Source: a virus. From it: a stretch of DNA of 24,069 bases. The stretch spans positions 1 to 24,069 of the IMG/VR virus record IMGVR_UViG_3300042549_002595; one strand, 5' to 3'. Position numbers and translations under genes: made by a program. The stretch's first letter is position 1, and every line of letters begins with the position of its first letter. The notes beneath the pieces were generated by a model. It was not told the DNA's origin, made no database searches, and saw only the letters and a program-made list of their open reading frames with translations. Below are positions 958 through 12,455 of this stretch, one piece after another.

Positions 958-2127
958 TCACACCTCCAAGTGAACTGTTGTACCGTACGGAGCCTTGATG
1001 CGCTTGTTCGTGATGCACCAGAGCGTGGGCCAATCCGACTTCCCGAAGCTCCCGACCTCACCGTCGGTCAGCTGCACCACTGCCTGTGCCTGGATCTTCT
1101 GCTCACGCAGCCAGTCGAACAGCACCTCGCCTCGGGTCCCGCCCCCACCCTGCGGCTTCATCGAGAGGACTGCGAACTGCCCGTCCTCGAACACCTGATG
1201 CCCCGCGACTCGCGTGTCCCAGTACACGACGATCACCTTCTCAGGTCGGACCTGCTCAACGATCCCTGCCACCTCTGCAGCGAACGCCGTCATCACATCC
1301 GTGCCGAAGCAAGACCCGGACGTATCGAACCCGACTACGAGCGCACCCATCTTCACGCCCTGCATCGATGGGAGGTAGACGTCCTGAGCTAGGTAGCGTC
1401 GGTTCGGTTTGCGCCACGAGGACTCATCACGACCCGAGCAGAGCTCCTGCACGAACTCACGCAGCACCCGCCGCCAGTCGACCTTCGGAGTCAGGAGGTC
1501 ACCGATCACACCATCCGCACCACCAGCCCCGTCCTTGCTGCGCTGCCGACGCACGATCTCACCCTGACGCAGCAGACGACCGACCTCATCAGCGAGCTTC
1601 TGCGAGTCACCCCGCGCTTGCGCCTCCTCCCACTGGTGCTGATCGAACCCCTCACCGGGCTGACATCCACCCTGACCCTGCTGACCCTTCTGCTTCTGCT
1701 CATCCTTCAAGCGGTTGTAGATCTGCTGCACGGACATGCCCCGGTACTGTGGATCGGGAGGCACACCGACCGAAGGCATCTTGATGAACCCCTCGCCCTT
1801 GTCGGAGTCTTGCAGGGATAGGTTGACGAAGTAGTCAGCCGCGAGGTTAGTCAGTCTCTGGTCCTCGTCCCACAGGTGCTTCCACACATCGAGGTGCATG
1901 TAGGCGACGTGGGTTGCTTCGTGCAGGATCACGAAGCGGAGCTCCTCATCTGACAGAGACTTAACGAAGTTAGGGTTGTACCGCTTGTCGATCCCGTTCG
2001 TCGCAGCGGTGGGGATGTCGGTTGTGCAGGTGGTCGTCCCTGCTGCGACAAGTGGGCCGAAGGCACACCACGTCTTGTGGGACATGATCCGCACATGCAT
2101 CTTCCTGATGCGTTCCAACTGGTTCAT
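958..2127 (-). CDS. HExxH metallopeptidase-like/VWA-like protein (DUF2201 type)
   Basis: A 389-aa protein. The start is ATG 2127-2125, which overlaps the stop of the 58-aa gene (ATGA) and has a GGAGAAA ribosome site. The N-terminal part has a zinc-peptidase-like HEATH motif at residues 69-73, within VILHEATHVAYMH. The middle is Gln/Gly-rich and looks like a flexible linker. The C-terminal part is a VWA-like domain with a MIDAS-type DTSGS at 268-272, a threonine near 331 and TDGE around 354-357. This order is that of the DUF2201 family (putative metallopeptidase plus VWA-like). VWA proteins of this sort commonly partner MoxR or CobS-type AAA+ ATPases, and such an ATPase is encoded two genes upstream. 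Whether the peptidase site is active is unknown. Host or phage targets cannot be inferred. Confidence 0.88.
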   Translation of the reverse strand: MNQLERIRKMHVRIMSHKTWCAFGPLVAAGTTTCTTDIPTAATNGIDKRYNPNFVKSLSDEELRFVILHEATHVAYMHLDVWKHLWDEDQRLTNLAADYFVNLSLQDSDKGEGFIKMPSVGVPPDPQYRGMSVQQIYNRLKDEQKQKGQQGQGGCQPGEGFDQHQWEEAQARGDSQKLADEVGRLLRQGEIVRRQRSKDGAGGADGVIGDLLTPKVDWRRVLREFVQELCSGRDESSWRKPNRRYLAQDVYLPSMQGVKMGALVVGFDTSGSCFGTDVMTAFAAEVAGIVEQVRPEKVIVVYWDTRVAGHQVFEDGQFAVLSMKPQGGGGTRGEVLFDWLREQKIQAQAVVQLTDGEVGSFGKSDWPTLWCITNKRIKAPYGTTVHLEV

Positions 2128-2300
2128 GGCTTTCTCCGTTTGAGTGCTTGTAGGTACTGCGACTGAAGGATCAGTTCGAGGTTCGACTGCTCGTAGTTCT
2201 TCGGGGGTGGTGTCCACCCGAGGCTGATCCTCCCCGGGTGCCAGTCTTTGTGAAGCCGCACGATCGTGCGGCCATCCGATGTACGCTCTGTCACCAGCAT
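2124..2300 (-). CDS. Small protein between MoxR and VWA genes, 58 aa
   Basis: ATG 2300-2298 is preceded by AAGGGG at good spacing, 10 bases after the MoxR stop. Its TGA overlaps the ATG of the VWA gene, a classic translational-coupling arrangement. The product begins MLVTERTSDGRTIVRLHKDW and ends QALKRRKP, with a PPP turn in the middle. I do not recognise a family. A longer in-frame ORF to 2396 would run back into the MoxR gene and lacks a better start, so I reject the extension. Its place between the two partner genes suggests a small accessory subunit, but that is inference from position only. Confidence 0.65.
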   Translation of the reverse strand: MLVTERTSDGRTIVRLHKDWHPGRISLGWTPPPKNYEQSNLELILQSQYLQALKRRKP

Positions 2301-2310
2301 GGCCGTCCCC

Positions 2311-3369
2311 TTATCGGATGTACTTCGCGTGTTTCGCGGAGAGCTCGGTGAACTCTCGGCACTGTGCAATGATCGGCAGCTTCGACTTGCTCGCACACAG
2401 CCTCGCCACGAACAGGTGGCTTGCTTCGACCGACTCCCAGCGAGTGACGTATTTGCAGAACGCGCCGAGCGTATCCCGGTCAGCCCTCGACGCGAGCTTG
2501 AACGCCATCATGAAGTACCCGGACACGTCCTCGGGCAGCTTCGCCTTCATCGGATCCGCGACGATCACAGGCAGGGGAGTGAGCTGTGCATCGAGCTGCA
2601 CTTGCGCTTCGAGGAGCCGAGCCGCAGGCTCACCGATCGTACCGGCGAGAGCCGGGAGGAGTGCGTCACCGAGCAGGTCCTTGTGCTTGATGATGTGCGA
2701 TGCCTTCTCGGCAGAGCGCGGAGACCAGAACGTCTTGGTGTTGCCAGTGAGCGGGTTGAACACGTACGGGTTCTTCGGGTTCTCCAGCATGTCGTACCGC
2801 TCGAACAACTCGGGGTTGTCCTCGGAGAACTTCAGGATCTCGTGCGTGATCCCGTTGTCCATGCCCCACGCAAGGAACTCGTCCTTCGTGATGTTCGCGT
2901 AGTCCACCACCGTGCATCGGTTGTATGCGATCGCCGGGAAGTTGTCCCCCACCCCATCGGTATCGAGGTTCCCCGCAGCAAACACACGACTGCCGATCGG
3001 TAGCGGCACATCAGCGATCCGATGTTCAAGCAGCACAGGCAGCAGCATGTTCAGCACCGGCTTCAGTGCCTTCGTCAGCTCATCGAGGAACAGCAGCACG
3101 GGGCGGGTCTGCCCCCGAGCCACACCAAACCGCGCCGAGGGTGCGTAGTGAGTCGTCATCGCTTCCTTGTCTACGACCGGCATGGCGAGGTCACCGAGGT
3201 CGAGGTTCGCACAGTCCACGTACGCCACGTGGTAGTCCGGCATCCGTCGAGCGAGTTCCTTCAGCATCGAGGACTTGCCCTGACCGGGCGCACCCCGGAA
3301 CAGGAACGTGACTTGCGACCCGAGGGTCTGGACGAGGTTCACAGCTTGTTCAAAATTCACTTGCAACAT
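2311..3369 (-). CDS. MoxR/CobS-type AAA+ ATPase
   Basis: A 352-aa AAA+ protein starting at ATG 3369 after AAGGAG. Walker A is GAPGQGKS at residues 26-33. Walker B is VLLFLDE at 91-97. A sensor-1-like AAGN lies around 131-134, and an arginine finger candidate follows in AYNR near 151. The compact N-terminus and a Walker B followed by a helix rich in leucines fit MoxR-type ATPases, and the protein also resembles CobS-like ATPases. These ATPases form rings that remodel protein complexes together with VWA partners. Here the VWA partner lies 58 codons downstream in the same operon. The target of the pair in a phage is unknown. A 17-bp dyad lies 24 bp upstream of the start. Confidence 0.9.
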   Translation of the reverse strand: MLQVNFEQAVNLVQTLGSQVTFLFRGAPGQGKSSMLKELARRMPDYHVAYVDCANLDLGDLAMPVVDKEAMTTHYAPSARFGVARGQTRPVLLFLDELTKALKPVLNMLLPVLLEHRIADVPLPIGSRVFAAGNLDTDGVGDNFPAIAYNRCTVVDYANITKDEFLAWGMDNGITHEILKFSEDNPELFERYDMLENPKNPYVFNPLTGNTKTFWSPRSAEKASHIIKHKDLLGDALLPALAGTIGEPAARLLEAQVQLDAQLTPLPVIVADPMKAKLPEDVSGYFMMAFKLASRADRDTLGAFCKYVTRWESVEASHLFVARLCASKSKLPIIAQCREFTELSAKHAKYIR

Positions 3370-3392: not shown

Positions 3393-3409
3393 GTTTTAAC
3401 GATTAAAAG
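3393..3409 (-). promoter_or_regulatory. Dyad operator candidate, copy 2
   Basis: GTTTTAA-CGA-TTAAAAG on the plus strand, with only the last base off the 17-bp dyad. It fills the gap between the stop of the 262-aa gene (3412) and the MoxR ribosome site. Confidence 0.6.
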
Positions 3410-5423: not shown

Positions 5424-5854
5424 GTCTAGTCTCGGCACGGTTTGCGCTTCGTCAGCTGAACCAGCTGCATCAGCACCTCTATCTAGACTCATCAGTGAGC
5501 GCATCACGCTCAGACCGGCAGATGCCTGCCGGTTTCGTCTTTGCGCCTTCGTTCCCTGCACCTCATGAGGTCTGCCTTGACGAGCTTGTAGCCCGTACTG
5601 CTTAAGTGTTAGTGGCGTCCTTCATGTCCAGCACAGAGAGGGGACTGTATACCCCACGACTATTCACCAAGTTTCCACAGCATCGGCTCCACCGGCACAG
5701 ACGGTCTTCAGTCTGCACCCCATACCTTGTTCGTTGGGTAGTGGTATGGTTTGGCTTCGCTCTGCCTAGCAGCACAGGGTTGCTGTCCCGTGCCGTGTGT
5801 GTTGGCTTCTGCATGTAGCAGCGTCGGTTTGCTGCACTGCACCCGGGCTCCTGG
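5424..5854 (-). other. Untranslated leader of the leftward operon
   Basis: About 430 bases with no start codon that has a convincing ribosome site on the minus strand. Together with 5855-5952 it forms a long leader for the leftward transcript. The clearest structure is a perfect 8-bp stem at 5514-5533 (ACCGGCAG-ATGC-CTGCCGGT). It may contain regulatory RNA or fast-evolving tiny genes, but nothing can be called. Confidence 0.4.
5514..5533. other. Perfect 8-bp stem-loop in the leader
   Basis: ACCGGCAG-ATGC-CTGCCGGT, an uninterrupted stem with a 4-nt loop. It is followed by TTCGTCTTT on the plus strand only, so it is weakly terminator-like in the direction opposite to the operon. Confidence 0.45.
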
Positions 5855-5871
5855 GTTTTAACGATTAAAAC
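5855..5871 (-). promoter_or_regulatory. Dyad operator candidate, copy 5
   Basis: GTTTTAA-CGA-TTAAAAC on the plus strand, perfect arms. It is about 80 bp downstream of the predicted leftward transcription start, so it would lie in the transcribed leader. Confidence 0.65.
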
Positions 5872-5890
5872 CTCCCGGCGTACAGCGCAT

Positions 5891-5911
5891 ACATCAAATT
5901 GTTAAAGAGCG
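5891..5911 (-). promoter_or_regulatory. boxA-like antitermination site
   Basis: The minus strand reads CGCTCTTTAACAATTTGATG, about 40 nt into the predicted leftward RNA. The core CTCTTTAACAATTT closely resembles the boxA of E. coli rRNA operon leaders (TGCTCTTTAACAATTT), the site bound by NusB/NusE. Its place just after a strong promoter and ahead of a long operon suits antitermination. I saw no clear boxB/N-like arrangement, but two stem-loops precede it. Confidence 0.6.
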
Positions 5912-5914
5912 TGG

Positions 5915-5950
5915 AGTCGGTACACCGACCCGGCTGGGTGAGTTCCCAGC
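5915..5950 (-). other. Two stem-loops at the 5' end of the leftward RNA
   Basis: GTCGG-TACA-CCGAC (5915-5928) and GGCTGGG-TGAGTT-CCCAGCC (5931-5950) are perfect inverted repeats. They lie between the predicted transcription start near 5952 and the boxA. Such 5' hairpins can protect an RNA end or serve antitermination. Confidence 0.5.
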
Positions 5951-5958
5951 CAACCTCT

Positions 5959-5987
5959 ATTATACCCTAAATACTAAACAATGTCAA
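5959..5987 (-). promoter_or_regulatory. Consensus sigma70 promoter of the leftward operon
   Basis: On the minus strand, TTGACA (plus-strand 5982-5987), a 17-bp spacer, then TATAAT (5959-5964). Both hexamers match the sigma70 consensus exactly at ideal spacing. Initiation is expected near 5952. It would drive genes from 5357 to beyond the left edge, and its strength suggests early expression by host RNA polymerase. The spacer contains the ACATTGTTTAG string also found at 7925-7935. Confidence 0.85.
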
Positions 5988-6024
5988 TAGATACGGCACA
6001 GGTTCAGCAGGGGGTCAAAGGTGA

Positions 6025-6041
6025 GTTTTAATCATTAAAAC
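6025..6041. promoter_or_regulatory. Dyad operator candidate, copy 6
   Basis: GTTTTAA-TCA-TTAAAAC, with perfect arms and a variant centre. It lies about 40 bp upstream of the -35 box of the leftward promoter, where an activator or repressor could act. Confidence 0.65.
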
Positions 6042-6089
6042 GAAGGGATATGTGAGGCTGGGGGGTTTATACATCTCCATTAACTTACC

Positions 6090-6114
6090 AAAATAAGTAG
6101 TCTCCGTCGCAGGT
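6090..6114. repeat. 25-bp direct repeat, copy 1
   Basis: A 25-bp string with core AAGTAGTCTCCGTCGCAGGT, repeated without mismatch at 6420-6444, exactly 330 bp away. The flanks do not match, so it is a discrete element. It could be a recombination or attachment site, or a protein-binding site within the control region. Confidence 0.85.
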
Positions 6115-6184
6115 CATCAAAAAATGAAACGCTGGGGTGTGATCTGTATAAATGGCGAAAAAGTATGGTGGGGGATGGCAGAGG

Positions 6185-6337
6185 GCGTAACGCACGGCAC
6201 TTTAAGAAAATGCGCTAAGTCATTGAAAAGTAGTATGCGGCTCAGGTGGGGGCGAAAACCGCGTAACGCATGTAACGCAGGATGTAATGCAAAAGGTTGT
6301 TTGGGATCAACGATGTAACGAGCGTAACGAATGTAAC
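6185..6337. repeat. Iteron-like GTAACG cluster, left
   Basis: Seven copies of a GTAACG-type word, all in plus orientation: 6185, 6261, 6271, 6283 (GTAATG variant), 6314, 6322 and 6332. The usual form is GCGTAACGCA or TGTAACGCA. Several copies are spaced about 9-12 bp apart, close to one helical turn. A 64-codon frame overlaps but looks like a by-product of the repeats. Confidence 0.65.
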
Positions 6338-6419
6338 TTTTTTTCAGTGTAAAGTCCTGGCCGGGGGGACCCCCAAAGGGTCCAAAACCCATATTTTTTC
6401 AATCTCCAAAAATGCGTAA

Positions 6420-6444
6420 AAAATAAGTAGTCTCCGTCGCAGGT
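6420..6444. repeat. 25-bp direct repeat, copy 2
   Basis: Exact copy of 6090-6114. The two copies bracket the left GTAACG cluster. Confidence 0.85.
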
Positions 6445-6478
6445 ACACACGCAGCCAGCAAGAGAACCCCCCAAAAAA

Positions 6479-6495
6479 GCGTTACAAGCGTTACA
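6479..6495. repeat. Iteron-like CGTTAC pair
   Basis: GCGTTACAAGCGTTACA, two copies of the word in the orientation opposite to the left cluster. The identical 17-mer recurs at 6639-6655 on the far side of the AT-rich tract. Confidence 0.7.
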
Positions 6496-6598
6496 CTCTA
6501 TTATTATTATTAAATTTAGTTATATATATATATATATATAGGGCTTTTTTCATGAAAAATACAACAGATTTAAGTAAAAAAGGTTCAATTTACTAAAC
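6496..6598. other. AT-rich tract with (TA)10
   Basis: A very AT-rich stretch including TTATTATTATTAAATTTAG and an uninterrupted (TA)10 at 6521-6540. It lies between two copies of the same CGTTAC pair. This is the layout of a DNA-unwinding element within an iteron-type origin. Confidence 0.6.
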
Positions 6599-6607
6599 AG
6601 TGTTTAG
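6593..6607. promoter_or_regulatory. 15-bp palindrome CTAAACA-G-TGTTTAG
   Basis: A perfect 7-bp inverted repeat around one base. Half-sites of the same sequence occur at the leftward promoter (5974-5984) and before the terminase genes (7925-7935). It is a candidate operator for a second DNA-binding protein. Confidence 0.45.
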
Positions 6608-6615
6608 CATTTTGA

Positions 6616-6655
6616 TGTAACGCAATTCGCGTTACGCGGCGTTACAAGCGTTACA
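6616..6655. repeat. Iteron-like cluster, right
   Basis: Four words in 40 bp: TGTAACGCA (6616), then GCGTTAC at 6629, 6639 and 6648. The first two form an inverted repeat and the last two repeat the 17-mer of 6479-6495. Confidence 0.65.
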
Positions 6656-6699
6656 AGGGGGCTCCCTGCTGGAAGGTGCTGAAATCCCGCCAATTCGGG

Positions 6700-6716
6700 G
6701 TTTTAATCGTTAAAAC
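6700..6716 (+). promoter_or_regulatory. Dyad operator candidate, copy 7
   Basis: GTTTTAA-TCG-TTAAAAC, perfect arms. It lies in gene-free DNA just right of the iteron-like repeats. Its centre is inverted relative to copies 1-5. Confidence 0.6.
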
Positions 6717-6744
6717 TACGCCGCAAGCCTAGCCATACTACGGA

Positions 6745-6761
6745 GTTTTAATCGTTAAAAC
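6745..6761 (+). promoter_or_regulatory. Dyad operator candidate, copy 8
   Basis: GTTTTAA-TCG-TTAAAAC, identical to copy 7 and exactly 45 bp from it, so the two sites could be bound cooperatively. Flanking 7-bp inverted arms (CATACTA 6734-6740, TAGTATG 6783-6789) enclose it. Confidence 0.6.
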
Positions 6762-6812
6762 GCGCAGCCCCTGCTGCGGGATAGTATGCCCTGCCGAAGG
6801 CAGGCTGACTGG

Positions 6813-6874
6813 GCTCTCGCGCACTCCCAGACACTCACTCACTCACGCTCTCGCGCACCCACACTCTCGCGCAC
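6813..6874. repeat. CTCTCGCGCAC direct repeats
   Basis: The 11-mer CTCTCGCGCAC occurs three times in about 60 bp, in low-complexity DNA that also contains CACTCACTCACTC. No function is evident and it could be replication slippage. Confidence 0.5.
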
Positions 6875-6908
6875 ACGGGCTCCTTCGCCGCTGCCTACTA
6901 TCACGAAA

Positions 6909-6952
6909 CCCGCGCAAAACGCGGGCAATAAAAAGCCCGCCGAAGCGGGCTT
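6909..6952 (-). terminator. Intrinsic terminator of the 184-aa gene
   Basis: On the minus strand, AAGCCCGC-TTCG-GCGGGCTT is followed by TTTATTG, an 8-bp stem with a stable UUCG loop and a U-run, 17 bp after the TCA stop. A second hairpin (CCCGCG-CAAAA-CGCGGG, 6909-6925) follows immediately. In the plus direction A's precede the stem and no U-run follows. Confidence 0.8.
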
Positions 6953-6969
6953 GGTGCTGCTAGGATCGG

Positions 6970-7524
6970 TCAGTCTTTGATCCAACCCTGCGCTTTGCAG
7001 TAGTTCAGGAACAGCGTTACCCGGGCCGGTTCAGACTGGATTGCCGTGATGGCATCCGTAAACATCCCAAGGTCCGTGGCCTTGCCAAGCTTAACTTCGA
7101 TTGTCCGGGCCTTGCGGTCAACCTTGACCGTGCCGACCGTGACGGCCTTGGTTGCGGGCTTGACCTTGCGACCCCCCTTTTTCTTTTCGGTCTCGGGTAA
7201 AGCATATTCAGGCTTGTTGACGATACCTGCCGACCACGCGACCTTGTGAAACAAGGCCCGGACAATGCCAGACCGATAGGATGCTGCGGTTGCGGTTGTC
7301 AGATCGCCAGATTCAACCAAGGGCCCGAAAACCTCGGCCTTGATTACCGTGACGATCTGTGAATCCTTCAGGCCTTCGGACCTTGCGGTATCTATAAGGT
7401 AGTTGATTGCCATCTCACGTTTAACTGTGGCCTTGGCCGTGGCCTTTGCCACGTCGTCGTTACCCTTCTGGAAGGTCTTGATTGCGGAAGCGATTGCATC
7501 GATCAATTTGAATGACGTATCCAT
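6970..7524 (-). CDS. Solitary 184-aa protein, possible DNA-binding regulator
   Basis: Starts at ATG 7524-7522 behind AAAGGAT. It begins MDTSFKLIDAIASAIKTFQK. The N-terminal two thirds is helical (SEGLKDSQIVTVIKAEVFGP, then a TAASYRSGIVRALFHKVAW segment). A basic hinge (KKKGGRKVKPATK) follows, then a small beta-like domain and a helical end (FLNYCKAQGWIKD). It is soluble, with no catalytic motif. The gene stands alone between the putative origin and the late genes, with its own promoter and terminator, and a dyad operator abuts its -35 box. That setting suits an autoregulated control or replication protein, which is inference. I do not recognise the family. The longer frame to 7596 lacks a ribosome site and would start inside the promoter. 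Confidence 0.75.
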   Translation of the reverse strand: MDTSFKLIDAIASAIKTFQKGNDDVAKATAKATVKREMAINYLIDTARSEGLKDSQIVTVIKAEVFGPLVESGDLTTATAASYRSGIVRALFHKVAWSAGIVNKPEYALPETEKKKGGRKVKPATKAVTVGTVKVDRKARTIEVKLGKATDLGMFTDAITAIQSEPARVTLFLNYCKAQGWIKD

Positions 7525-7575
7525 GATTGGATCCTTTAGGTTGTGTGGCCTGCGTGATTGCCTGCCACAGTTCGA

Positions 7576-7604
7576 ACTATACAGAGTCAAGAGCACCCTG
7601 TCAA
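7576..7604 (-). promoter_or_regulatory. sigma70 promoter of the 184-aa gene
   Basis: On the minus strand, TTGACA (plus-strand 7599-7604), a 17-bp spacer, then TATAGT (7576-7581), one mismatch from consensus over both boxes. Initiation is expected near 7569, about 45 nt before the ATG. A dyad copy ends the DNA immediately upstream of the -35. Confidence 0.8.
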
Positions 7605-7621
7605 GTTCTAATCGTTAAAAC
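7605..7621 (+). promoter_or_regulatory. Dyad operator candidate, copy 9 (degenerate)
   Basis: GTTCTAA-TCG-TTAAAAC, one mismatch in the left arm. It begins directly next to the TGTCAA (minus-strand TTGACA) of the 184-aa gene promoter. A bound protein would touch RNA polymerase. Confidence 0.6.
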
Positions 7622-7729
7622 TCGCCGCCAGCAGACCCCACCGTACCCGGGGACACCCTTTTGGCTGATGGGACCCCCACGCGCTATACGCTGAGCGCAA
7701 CTCCCACACCCCCAAACTTTTAGAGTTAC
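7622..7729. other. Gene-free stretch before the terminase repeats
   Basis: C-rich DNA without a credible reading frame. The only structure seen is an inverted repeat GCGCT-ATACGCTG-AGCGC at 7681-7698. It may belong to the packaging site with the repeats that follow. Confidence 0.4.
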
Positions 7730-7848
7730 TTAACTCTTTAGCGAACGTAGCTCTCCAACTCCTTAACTCTTTAGCGAACGTAGCTTCTTAGCTTACTTAA
7801 CTCTCCAACTCCTTAACTCTTTAGCGAACGTAGCTCTCCAACTCCTTA
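7730..7848. repeat. Three 23-bp direct repeats upstream of terminase (cos/pac candidate)
   Basis: A 23-bp string beginning TTAACTCTTTAGCGAACG occurs exactly at 7730-7752, 7763-7785 and 7813-7835. A second string, CTCTCCAACTCCTTA, is interleaved and also present three times (7751, 7801, 7834). Direct repeats beside the small-terminase gene are typical of terminase-binding sites at cos or pac sequences. The unequal spacing (33 and 50 bp) and lack of unique spacers argue against CRISPR. Confidence 0.65.
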
Positions 7849-7940
7849 TTCCATGCCAACCCACCCCCTTCCTTTTGTGCAGCCCCCTGCAAAAATTTTG
7901 CAAAATTCCAATAGCTTTTACTTTACATTGTTTAGCTCTC

Positions 7941-7969
7941 TTGCACACTGATAAAGAACGCCGTAATAT
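7941..7969 (+). promoter_or_regulatory. Probable rightward (late) promoter
   Basis: TTGCAC (7941-7946), a 17-bp spacer and TAATAT (7964-7969), about 27 bp before the small-terminase ATG. It is weaker than the leftward promoters, as expected if late transcription needs activation. An ACATTGTTTAG string lies just upstream (7925-7935). Confidence 0.4.
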
Positions 7970-7996
7970 CTAGCTTCCGCTTTAGGAGCGAGCGCC

Positions 7997-8566
7997 ATGC
8001 AGCCGGTTGTCATAGACACGGATGTGCCTTTTGCCGATTACCCGCCGACCTTTGATGATCTCAAAGCGCGTATAGACGCCGCTTTCAATAGCGTTGCCGA
8101 AGTCCATGAGGACGTGCCGGTGACGGTAGAAGATCAGATCAATGCCCGTGCTGTTATCTCTGGCACGATGAAGCCTACAGAGGTGCTGCTGTCGTCCCCC
8201 GGCACCGTGGTGCAGATCAAAGCGATCCTGAGTGAGTACGACCAAGTGGTTGTGCAGTCCTCTGTGCAGATCCGCAACTACGTCACCAACAAGCTGATAC
8301 AAGACAGCACTCATCCGGACCCGCGCATCAGACTCAAGTGCTACGAGCTGCTTGGGAAGATCTCCGATGTGGGCTTGTTCACGGATAAATCAGAGATCAC
8401 GATGCGGCATAGGCCCACTGAAGAGCTGGAGCAGCTGCTGAGAGAGCGGCTTACTAAGACGCTAGAGGCCGAGATTTCCAACCCTGAGCCGATTCCGACC
8501 TTTGAAGAGGTGCTGGCAGAAACTGCTACGCCTGTGCAGGATGATGGGAACACTAACCAAAGCTGA
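7997..8566 (+). CDS. Terminase small subunit (probable)
   Basis: A 189-aa protein starting at ATG 7997 after TAGGAGCG. It immediately precedes and overlaps the large terminase gene, the usual place of the small subunit that recognises the packaging site. The sequence is helical: an N-terminal acidic segment, a central block with VVVQSSVQIRNYVTNKLIQD and DPRIRLKCYELLGKISDVGL, then an acidic tail. The centre resembles phage small terminases that use a helical DNA-recognition and oligomerisation core, though no sharp signature motif is present. The direct repeats at 7730-7848 would be its likely DNA target. The call rests mainly on position, length and helical layout. Confidence 0.72.
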   Translation: MQPVVIDTDVPFADYPPTFDDLKARIDAAFNSVAEVHEDVPVTVEDQINARAVISGTMKPTEVLLSSPGTVVQIKAILSEYDQVVVQSSVQIRNYVTNKLIQDSTHPDPRIRLKCYELLGKISDVGLFTDKSEITMRHRPTEELEQLLRERLTKTLEAEISNPEPIPTFEEVLAETATPVQDDGNTNQS

Positions 8567-10121: not shown

Positions 10122-12455
10122 ATGGCTACCAGCATGATCGATAAAGGTCTGTATGCGGCTCCAGCGGGCATCCTGGCGATGTCAGAGGATGAGGCTCAAG
10201 CGCCTGCGTTGGAGATCGACATCGTTGATCCGAAGGTTGTAACGCTATCGGATGGCAGTGTAGAGATCACACTGGTGCCGGAGGAAGCAGAGTCAGAGGC
10301 GAGTTTTGATTCGAACCTTGCGGAATATATGGATGAGGGTGAGCTGGCGTCGTTGGCGTCTGAGCTCATGGGGCTTGTAGATGCGGACATCACGTCTCGG
10401 AAGGACTGGGCGGATACGTACGTGAAGGGACTGGAGGTGCTTGGGTTCCGGTATGAGGAGCGTACGGATCCGTGGGAGGACGCTTGCGGGGTCTATAGCA
10501 CCGTGTTGGCGGAAGCCGTGATTCGGTTCCAAGCGGAGACGATGAGCGAGACGTTCCCTGCTGCGGGTCCTGTGAAGACGAAGATCTTGGGTGAGATGAC
10601 CCCTGAGAAGGCGAAGGCAGCGGATCGGGTTCGTGCAGATATGAACTACCAGCTGACTGAGCGGATGGTGGAGTATCGCAGTGAGCATGAGCGCCTGCTG
10701 TATGCGTTGGGGCTCGCAGGGTCGTCGTTTAAGAAGGTGTATTACGACCCGAGACTAGGTAGACAGGTGTCGGTTTTCATCCCTGCAGAAGATGTCATCG
10801 TGCCGTATGGGACGTCTCATATCGAGATGGCTGAGCGCGTGACGCATGTGATGCGGAAAACGAAGAACGATATTGAGCACCTGCAAGCGGGTAGGTTCTA
10901 CCGTGAAATCGACCTTGGAGAGCCGGTAGCGTTCTATACGGACATTGAGAAGAAGAAAGCGGAGGAAGGTGGATATACACTCAACTCAGACGATCGGTAT
11001 GCGGTCTGTGAGATCCATGCGGATCTGAAGCTTGAAGGGTTTGATGATGAGGACGGGCTTGCGAAGCCGTATGTGGTGACGATCGATAAGGGGACGAATA
11101 CGGTTCTTGCGATTCGCAGGAACTGGGATCCCACCGACGAGCTTCATCGGCCTCGGCAACACTTCGTTCACTACGTCTACGTCCCAGGGTTTGGGTTCTA
11201 CGGGCTTGGCTTGATTCACATCATCGGGGGGTACGCCCGTGCCGGGACTTCGCTGATCCGTCAGCTCGTTGATGCCGGGACGCTTGCGAACTTGCCGGGA
11301 GGTTTGAAGGCTCGCGGTTTGCGAGTGAAGGGCGATGATACGCCGATCCAGCCGGGTGAGTTTAGGGATGTAGACATCCCGAGTGGAGCGATTAAAGACA
11401 ACATCATGATGCTTCCGTACAAGGAGCCGAGTCAGGTGTTGGTGGGTCTCTTGGATAAGATCACGAACGACGGTCGTCGCCTTGGTGCGATCAGCGATAT
11501 GAACATCTCCGACATGAGTGCGAATGCACCGGTTGGAACGACCTTGGCGCTCCTTGAGCGCACTCTCAAGCCCATGGCGGCGGTTCAGGCTCGGGTTCAC
11601 TTTGCGATGAAGCAGGAGTTCAAACTCCTGAAAGCGTTGATTGCCGAGTATGCCGACGAGCCGTATGACTATATCCCCGAGGGGGTGGATCGTCGGGCTC
11701 GTTCAGAGGACTACGCGCTGGTTGAAGTGATACCGGTCAGCGATCCAAACTCATCCACGATGGCTCAACGGGTGGTGCAGTACCAAGCGGCGTTCCAGAT
11801 GGCGCAGAACGCTCCGCAGATCTATGACTTGCCGTATTTGCATCGACAGATGATCGAGGTATTGGGGATCAAGAATGCGGACAAGCTCGTGCCGCTGCCT
11901 GATGATCAGAAGCCTCGGGATCCGATCAGTGAGAACATGGGTGCTCTGATGGGCAAGCCCATGAAGGCGTTCATTTATCAGGACCACGACGCGCATATGA
12001 TGGCGCATCAGGCGTTTATTCAGGATCCGATGATTGGTGCTGCGATTGGGCAGAATCCGATGGCGCAGCAGATCATGGCGGCGCTACAGGCGCACATCGC
12101 AGAGCACTTGGGCTTTGCCTATCGGAAGCAGATCGAAGAGCGTCTAGGCGTACCGCTGATGGCTCCGGATGAAGAGATGTCGGAAGAGATTGAGCTCCAG
12201 CTCTCTCGCGTGGTGGCGGATGCTGCGAAGCAGCTGACACAGATGCATCAGGCTCAAGCGGCTCAACAGCAAGCGCAACAAGTGCAACAGGATCCGCTCT
12301 TCCAGCTCCAACAGGCTGAGCTGCAAGTGAAGCAGCAGGAAGTCCAGAGGAAGGCGATGAAGGACAAGCAGGACGCTGCGATCGATCGTGAGAAGTTGCA
12401 GTTAGAGACTTTGAAGACGGTGGCGACGATCCGTAAACCGTCTGGAGTTCGCTAA
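10122..12455 (+). CDS. Portal protein (P22-like, 777 aa)
   Basis: Forms the dodecameric ring at the capsid vertex through which DNA enters. It lies directly after TerL, and its length fits long P22-type portals rather than the roughly 500-aa type. Start ATG 10122 follows AAGGATTGG; a TTG two codons earlier is rejected. The core includes TDPWEDACGVYSTVLAEAVI, long helices, and NISDMSANAPVGTTLALLER, a region conserved in this group. The last 100 residues are a Gln-rich coiled coil (QAQAAQQQAQQVQQDPLFQL), which in P22-like portals can form a barrel extending into the capsid. The stop overlaps the next start (TAATG). Confidence 0.88.
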   Translation: MATSMIDKGLYAAPAGILAMSEDEAQAPALEIDIVDPKVVTLSDGSVEITLVPEEAESEASFDSNLAEYMDEGELASLASELMGLVDADITSRKDWADTYVKGLEVLGFRYEERTDPWEDACGVYSTVLAEAVIRFQAETMSETFPAAGPVKTKILGEMTPEKAKAADRVRADMNYQLTERMVEYRSEHERLLYALGLAGSSFKKVYYDPRLGRQVSVFIPAEDVIVPYGTSHIEMAERVTHVMRKTKNDIEHLQAGRFYREIDLGEPVAFYTDIEKKKAEEGGYTLNSDDRYAVCEIHADLKLEGFDDEDGLAKPYVVTIDKGTNTVLAIRRNWDPTDELHRPRQHFVHYVYVPGFGFYGLGLIHIIGGYARAGTSLIRQLVDAGTLANLPGGLKARGLRVKGDDTPIQPGEFRDVDIPSGAIKDNIMMLPYKEPSQVLVGLLDKITNDGRRLGAISDMNISDMSANAPVGTTLALLERTLKPMAAVQARVHFAMKQEFKLLKALIAEYADEPYDYIPEGVDRRARSEDYALVEVIPVSDPNSSTMAQRVVQYQAAFQMAQNAPQIYDLPYLHRQMIEVLGIKNADKLVPLPDDQKPRDPISENMGALMGKPMKAFIYQDHDAHMMAHQAFIQDPMIGAAIGQNPMAQQIMAALQAHIAEHLGFAYRKQIEERLGVPLMAPDEEMSEEIELQLSRVVADAAKQLTQMHQAQAAQQQAQQVQQDPLFQLQQAELQVKQQEVQRKAMKDKQDAAIDREKLQLETLKTVATIRKPSGVR

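Follow-up and report, generated by a model that had tools for sequence, protein, structure and literature searches.

Short words around an AT-rich tract as a candidate replication origin in a group of uncultivated tailed phages

SaPI origins are reportedly built with repeats flanking an AT-rich tract. Their Rep helicases recognize an origin of multiple short repeats via the C-terminal domain, apparently as two hexamers, and the DUF927-containing protein Cch is a relative of SaPIbov1 Rep (PMC7581432). On the protein side, AEP primases of the PrimQH/All3500 groups carry fused helicase domains including DUF927 and are found on mobile elements, in a study that concerns proteins and mentions no iteron in its text (PMC5862659). 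The locus described here occupies positions 6185–6655 of the window, by which we mean the whole 24,069-base stretch analyzed, itself an entire IMG/VR virus record. Its reading as a candidate replication origin is well supported by the comparison of related sequences.

The window is part of the genome of a phage akin to uncultivated tailed phages of ~60–65 kb, a poorly known freshwater group; phage records searched with it at the DNA level gave no match. Its right part holds, on the plus strand, genes for a TerS-like protein (7997–8566), the large terminase, the portal and other structural proteins. The left part carries leftward early genes, among them a pair encoding a MoxR-like ATPase and a DUF2201 metallopeptidase/VWA protein (958–3369); Rhizobium phage RHph_TM27A combines genes annotated as having ATPase and metallopeptidase domains with replication genes of the same kinds. 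The earlier note had located the repeats between the divergent functional parts of the genome, which needs correcting: gene direction diverges at 7597–7996, and the repeats are separated from that point by one gene, to its left, with leftward transcription units on both sides of them. In agreement with that note, no gene is recognized in the region. Two open reading frames cross it (6117–6392, minus strand; 6124–6318, plus strand), and both are regarded as unsupported because the one retained for gene comparison has no homologue in the compared relatives at E 1e-4. The core is bounded on one side by a terminator-like hairpin (6933–6952, minus strand) that would close the neighboring gene, from a terminator scan that overall showed no enrichment over shuffled sequence, and on the other by an early promoter; it overlaps no promoter and no recognized gene. 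Rfam searches over 5500–8100 returned sub-threshold matches only.

Of all hexamers in the window, CGTTAC clusters most densely, with 11 copies within 470 bp of the core. Across 100 dinucleotide shuffles no hexamer formed a cluster of more than 7, so this one is beyond chance. The 13 GTAACG/CGTTAC words previously counted comprise these 11 exact copies plus two one-base variants, GTAATG (6284) and GTAACT (6333), and the same two variants make up the difference between the seven plus-oriented words claimed for the left side and the five exact ones present. With the flanking bases included (consensus YGTAACR, see below), the left words on the plus strand are a single copy at 6186–6192, a pair with 9-bp spacing at 6262–6268 and 6271–6277, the degenerate TGTAATG at 6283–6289, a second pair 43 bp from the first at 6314–6320 and 6323–6329, and the degenerate TGTAACT at 6332–6338, 9 bp beyond that second pair. 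A central pair on the minus strand (6479–6495; words at 6480 and 6489, 9-bp spacing) adjoins the AT tract and is found with a spacing of 8–9 bp at the same place in many relatives. To the right lies an array of four words (6616–6655, predominantly minus strand: 6616+, 6630−, 6640− and 6649−) spaced 14-10-9. The reverse-oriented pair GCGTTACAAGCGTTACA does occur identically at 6479–6495 and 6639–6655, as had been reported, and the (TA)10 run is present at 6521–6540. The AT tract (6496–6540) is a candidate unwinding element that falls in the 50- and 100-bp segments of lowest stability in the whole window; by nearest-neighbor energies, the 50-bp minimum of duplex stability in the window is at 6491, inside the word cluster. 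Together, the densest hexamer cluster and the least stable 50 bp define the proposed origin core. Left of it, and separately, a 25-bp exact direct repeat (AAAATAAGTAGTCTCCGTCGCAGGT) extends into the region, with copies at 6090–6114 and 6420–6444, 330 bp apart; its core, TAAGTAGTCT, is absent from the relatives scanned.

Clustered words of this kind upstream of a promoter could also be a control region, in which a phage transcription factor bound to them regulates the leftward early promoter at 5987. That promoter (5959–5987, minus strand, outside the core) is a perfect sigma-70 sequence, TTGACA-17-TATAAT, matching the consensus at 12/12 positions, and is one of only two strong sigma-70 promoters in the window, both leftward (the other, at 7604, matches at 11/12). 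The element lies upstream of it and offers many sequences resembling binding sites. We nevertheless consider regulation quite unlikely as its role, since the words lie 200–670 bp away from the promoter, on either side of the contig's least stable DNA, since the promoters possess 17-bp palindromes of their own nearby, and since an operator would need neither an AT tract nor mirror arrays. These palindromes (GTTTTAAnnnTTAAAAC) occur in nine copies (689, 3393, 4215, 5407, 5855, 6025, 6700, 6745 and 7605, those at 3393 and 7605 being one base off), near the starts of leftward genes and around the origin. The promoter at 7604 directly adjoins one of them, and a second lies 37 bp upstream of that at 5987; the core is flanked on the left by a copy at 6025–6041 (GTTTTAATCATTAAAAC, a probable operator) and on the right by copies at 6700–6716 and 6745–6761. 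Relatives carry different palindromes at matching places (CATCTAATCGTTAGATG, TTCTAAGCTTAGAA, ATTTTAACCGTTAAAAT), in the manner of an operator whose specificity differs between phages.

The origin reading was examined further in about 145 IMG/VR loci collected via TerL and TerS searches, including contigs of 60–68 kb. Three large genomes have identical ends (G004, 59 bp; G007, 54 bp; G008, 21 bp), as expected of circular maps. Gene order is kept in the relatives: structural genes run in one direction, early genes in the opposite one, and the element sits one gene from the divergence. Most relatives, not all, have a similar element 1.2–3 kb upstream of terL/terS, consisting of word clusters around an AT tract, and the same hexamer as in the window clusters 2–3 kb upstream of terL in L012, L014, L034, L036, L040, L041, L049 and others. 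For 24 of the 32 contigs examined, the least stable 50 bp lay within the densest cluster of family words, whereas 1.75 would be expected from position; this test is not fully blind, as the word set was chosen after seeing some of its loci, and the contigs include several that are related to one another. One contig that failed it (G002) has a weak GTAAC group that nonetheless surrounds its weakest DNA. One outcome that the earlier note had named as refuting it was a lack of conservation in relatives; the words are in fact conserved there in position, spacing and association with the least stable DNA, with letters that vary from lineage to lineage.

Flanks of the GTAAC core at 194 sites in 17 loci gave the 7-mer YGTAACR. 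Distances of 8 and 9 bp between words are strongly over-represented (29 and 25 pairs, vs. about 5 each by chance), and distances of 14, 20–21, 29 and 43 bp also stand out. From these a recurrent plan can be read. A left set with spacing 9-20-14 is followed by inner words, then by the central pair, 8–9 bp apart and bordering the AT tract, and finally by a right set whose spacing, 14-20-9, mirrors that of the left one. Seven loci (L094, L096, L098, L099, L103, L118 and L130) show the full mirror plan. The window and two others (L122, L123) have a right set of 14-10-9 and no canonical left set, and in L115 a left set of 9-11-13 stands beside a right set of 14-10-9. When gaps were shuffled within each locus, the right and left sets appeared in means of 1.2 and 1.3 loci (maximum 6), as opposed to 11/21 and 9/21 observed, counts that overstate independence because the gap classes were fixed after seeing the data and some of the 21 loci are close relatives.

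The same layout is also found with other words. These include GTAACA-rich clusters, GAAACG (L015, L018), GATACG beside GTAACG (L012, L014), GAACATT (L151, L159, L161, L162 and others), AGAACA (L266) and CAGAATAA (L265). The architecture is retained in lineages with more diverged primases, which use GAACATT (L161), AGAACA (L266), CAGAATAA (L265) and, in the cultured Pseudomonas phage Rollin, TATGCAA. Eight of the nine copies of TATGCAA in the Rollin genome lie within 420 bp around its least stable DNA, at 0.26–0.68 kb, and three of them, at 9-bp spacing, abut the AT tract. In RHph_TM27A the least stable DNA lies inside a 770-bp gap with five AATTATG words. Exceptions were also found. Word clusters are weak in G002 and G009, and no clear cluster was seen in G017, G010, G018, G005 or G012; relaxing the word to YGWWACR left the first four of these five without a cluster, and the G012 contig ends near the expected position of the element. 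The lack of a clear cluster in G017, G010, G018 and G012 comes despite primase homologues ~52, 70, 37 and 50% identical, respectively, to that of G004. A further record, DSL-LC04, was set aside: its replication module is annotated differently and there is no word cluster upstream of its terL.

Some of these exceptions bear on whether the true origin might instead be the neighboring divergent intergenic region (7597–7996), which has other tandem repeats. Arrays of DnaA boxes occur in this region, distinct from the element, in three genomes: seven perfect boxes in G007 (30701–30837, spaced 11–41 bp), three boxes in G005 and four in G012. Since G005 and G012 carry them instead of the words, and G007 has both, some members of the group may have switched or added an initiator. 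For the window itself this alternative is highly improbable. It contains no exact copy of the DnaA box TTATCCACA, and neither its divergent region nor that of most relatives has such boxes; the tandem repeats there also differ between phages. In the window, cumulative skew does reach its minimum near 8 kb, as an origin there would predict, but this minimum coincides with the switch in gene direction. GC skew, which the earlier note had put forward as a check, did not confirm an origin at the element either, the minima of G004, G007 and G008 lying elsewhere. We set it aside as an indicator because it is confounded with gene direction and its minima are inconsistent between genomes. The repeats before terS are worth recording in their own right: they read CTCTCCAACTCCTTAACTCTTTAGCGAACGTAG in the window (7597–7996) and CACCTGCGTTC in L012; the position in L074 is 10701–10837. 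Adjoining them in the window, at about 7625–7710, is a GC-rich block (GACCCCACCGTACCCGGGG..CCCTTTTG..GGGACCC..CGCGC..TACGCTGAGCGC) that is non-coding, recognizable in most relatives compared and without an Rfam family; it is possibly a packaging or control site.

The larger relatives suggest which protein might act on the words. They encode a protein of ~950 aa with an AEP prim-pol domain, a DUF927 helicase (E 2.8e-20) and a conserved C-terminal part. It was present in 9 of 25 records searched, mostly large ones (all of those of 59 kb or more), and was recovered from four further large genomes (G002, G004, G007 [partial] and G008). The 24-kb fragment encodes none, so that in this phage, judging from its relatives, the gene would lie beyond the window; in G004 the element (29.3–29.8 kb) and the primase-helicase gene (50.7–53.6 kb) are about 21 kb apart. 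A profile of the protein matches SCCmec Cch (5dgk, E 2.5e-20), C-terminal residues included, and the SaPIbov1 Rep initiator (8tch, E 6.9e-14). The AlphaFold2 model of the last 200 residues is a winged helix (pLDDT 78), for which the best solved Foldseek matches are 8tch, with an E-value of just 2e-3, and 5dgk; VIA-align scores it against the oriT-binding protein TcpK at Z 10.1, 8tch at Z 9.6 and 5dgk at Z 9.3. The C-terminal domain therefore models as a winged helix like that of SaPIbov1 Rep and Cch, a likeness of fold only. Low-identity homologues of the protein occur in the cultured phages Rollin (27.5%) and RHph_TM27A (24%). A search through 84,980 species genomes from bacteria and archaea returned a single distant match and thus gave no clue to the host. 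With the words conserved and a candidate phage initiator of the kind that reads short repeats (PMC7581432) encoded by relatives, the original proposal of an origin stands supported.

In many replicons the initiator gene sits beside its repeats, and the gene next to the element here encodes a small protein (6970–7524, minus strand; 184 aa from ATG, or 208 aa from a GTG at 7596). The region could then be an origin whose words are read by this protein, with the primase-helicase recruited afterwards. Members of the gene family adjoin the element in 65 loci, with the same strand orientation throughout, the AF2 model of the product (pLDDT 82) has a confidently modeled helical N-terminal domain, and in the GAACATT lineage a gene of comparable length occupies the corresponding position. 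The protein evolves fast, however, with about 20–25% identity among phages that share one word, and it matches no DNA-binding domain in Pfam and no fold in the PDB; a role as the reader of the words is accordingly unlikely. Protein searches of the phage collection returned no match to the family.

The account we favor is that the region is very probably a replication origin and is probably opened by a self-loading, Rep-type primase-helicase, likely the AEP-primase/DUF927 fusion of the group. Its computed support consists of the conserved words, their spacing and the duplex weak point, the homology of the helicase to SaPIbov1 Rep and Cch, and the modeled winged helix. From these we infer the binding of protein to words, the melting of the AT tract and the direction of replication. 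The fusion protein would bind the 7-bp words (YGTAACR in the window) through its C-terminal winged helix, at the left set, at the central pair that borders the AT tract, and at the right array. Its assembly there would melt the tract at 6496–6540; the helicase would then load itself, and the fused primase would start synthesis for the family-A polymerase of the phage. In several relatives the outer arrays are mirror images, which suggests two helicase complexes in opposite orientation and bidirectional replication. A broader picture, tentative and on balance doubtful, is of a large and mostly uncultivated phage clade with one protein for priming, unwinding and origin recognition, and with mirror-symmetric origins that load two opposed hexamers. 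Its lineages would have mutually exclusive words that changed along with the winged helix, and some few members would have switched to the DnaA of the host.

If the favored account is true, it would provide a mapped origin for an environmental phage group that has no close cultured member, and would connect an entire phage primase-helicase family with self-loading of the SaPI Rep type. Two distant cultured phages, Rollin and RHph_TM27A, could be used experimentally. The initiators and their words (GTAACR, GAAACG, GAACATT, CAGAATAA and TATGCAA) form a natural series that offers material on how a winged helix changes the DNA word that it reads, and could yield orthogonal replicons.

Compared with described systems, the element shares with iteron plasmid origins of the RepA/RepE type the placing of repeats beside an AT-rich unwinding region. 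In those plasmids the repeats are tandem, direct and ~17–22 bp long, whereas the phage words are 7 bp, in both orientations and spaced 8–9, 10, 14 or 20 bp. The PrimQH/All3500 primases resemble the phage protein in their helicase fusions, and SCCmec Cch (5dgk) is the best sequence match for its helicase and C-terminal part, although Cch has no primase fusion. SaPIbov1 Rep is like the protein of the relatives in its helicase core, which is homologous, and in its C-terminal winged helix, and the SaPI origin, like the candidate origin here, consists of multiple short repeats. The candidate phage initiator differs from SaPIbov1 Rep in being fused to an AEP primase, in belonging to a phage genome of ~60–65 kb rather than a satellite, and in the mirror-image arrays of its putative target. 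The SaPI origin also lies directly downstream of rep, unlike the distant arrangement in G004, and because the gene is not adjacent to the element we describe the phage system as working like SaPI Rep rather than assign it to that class.
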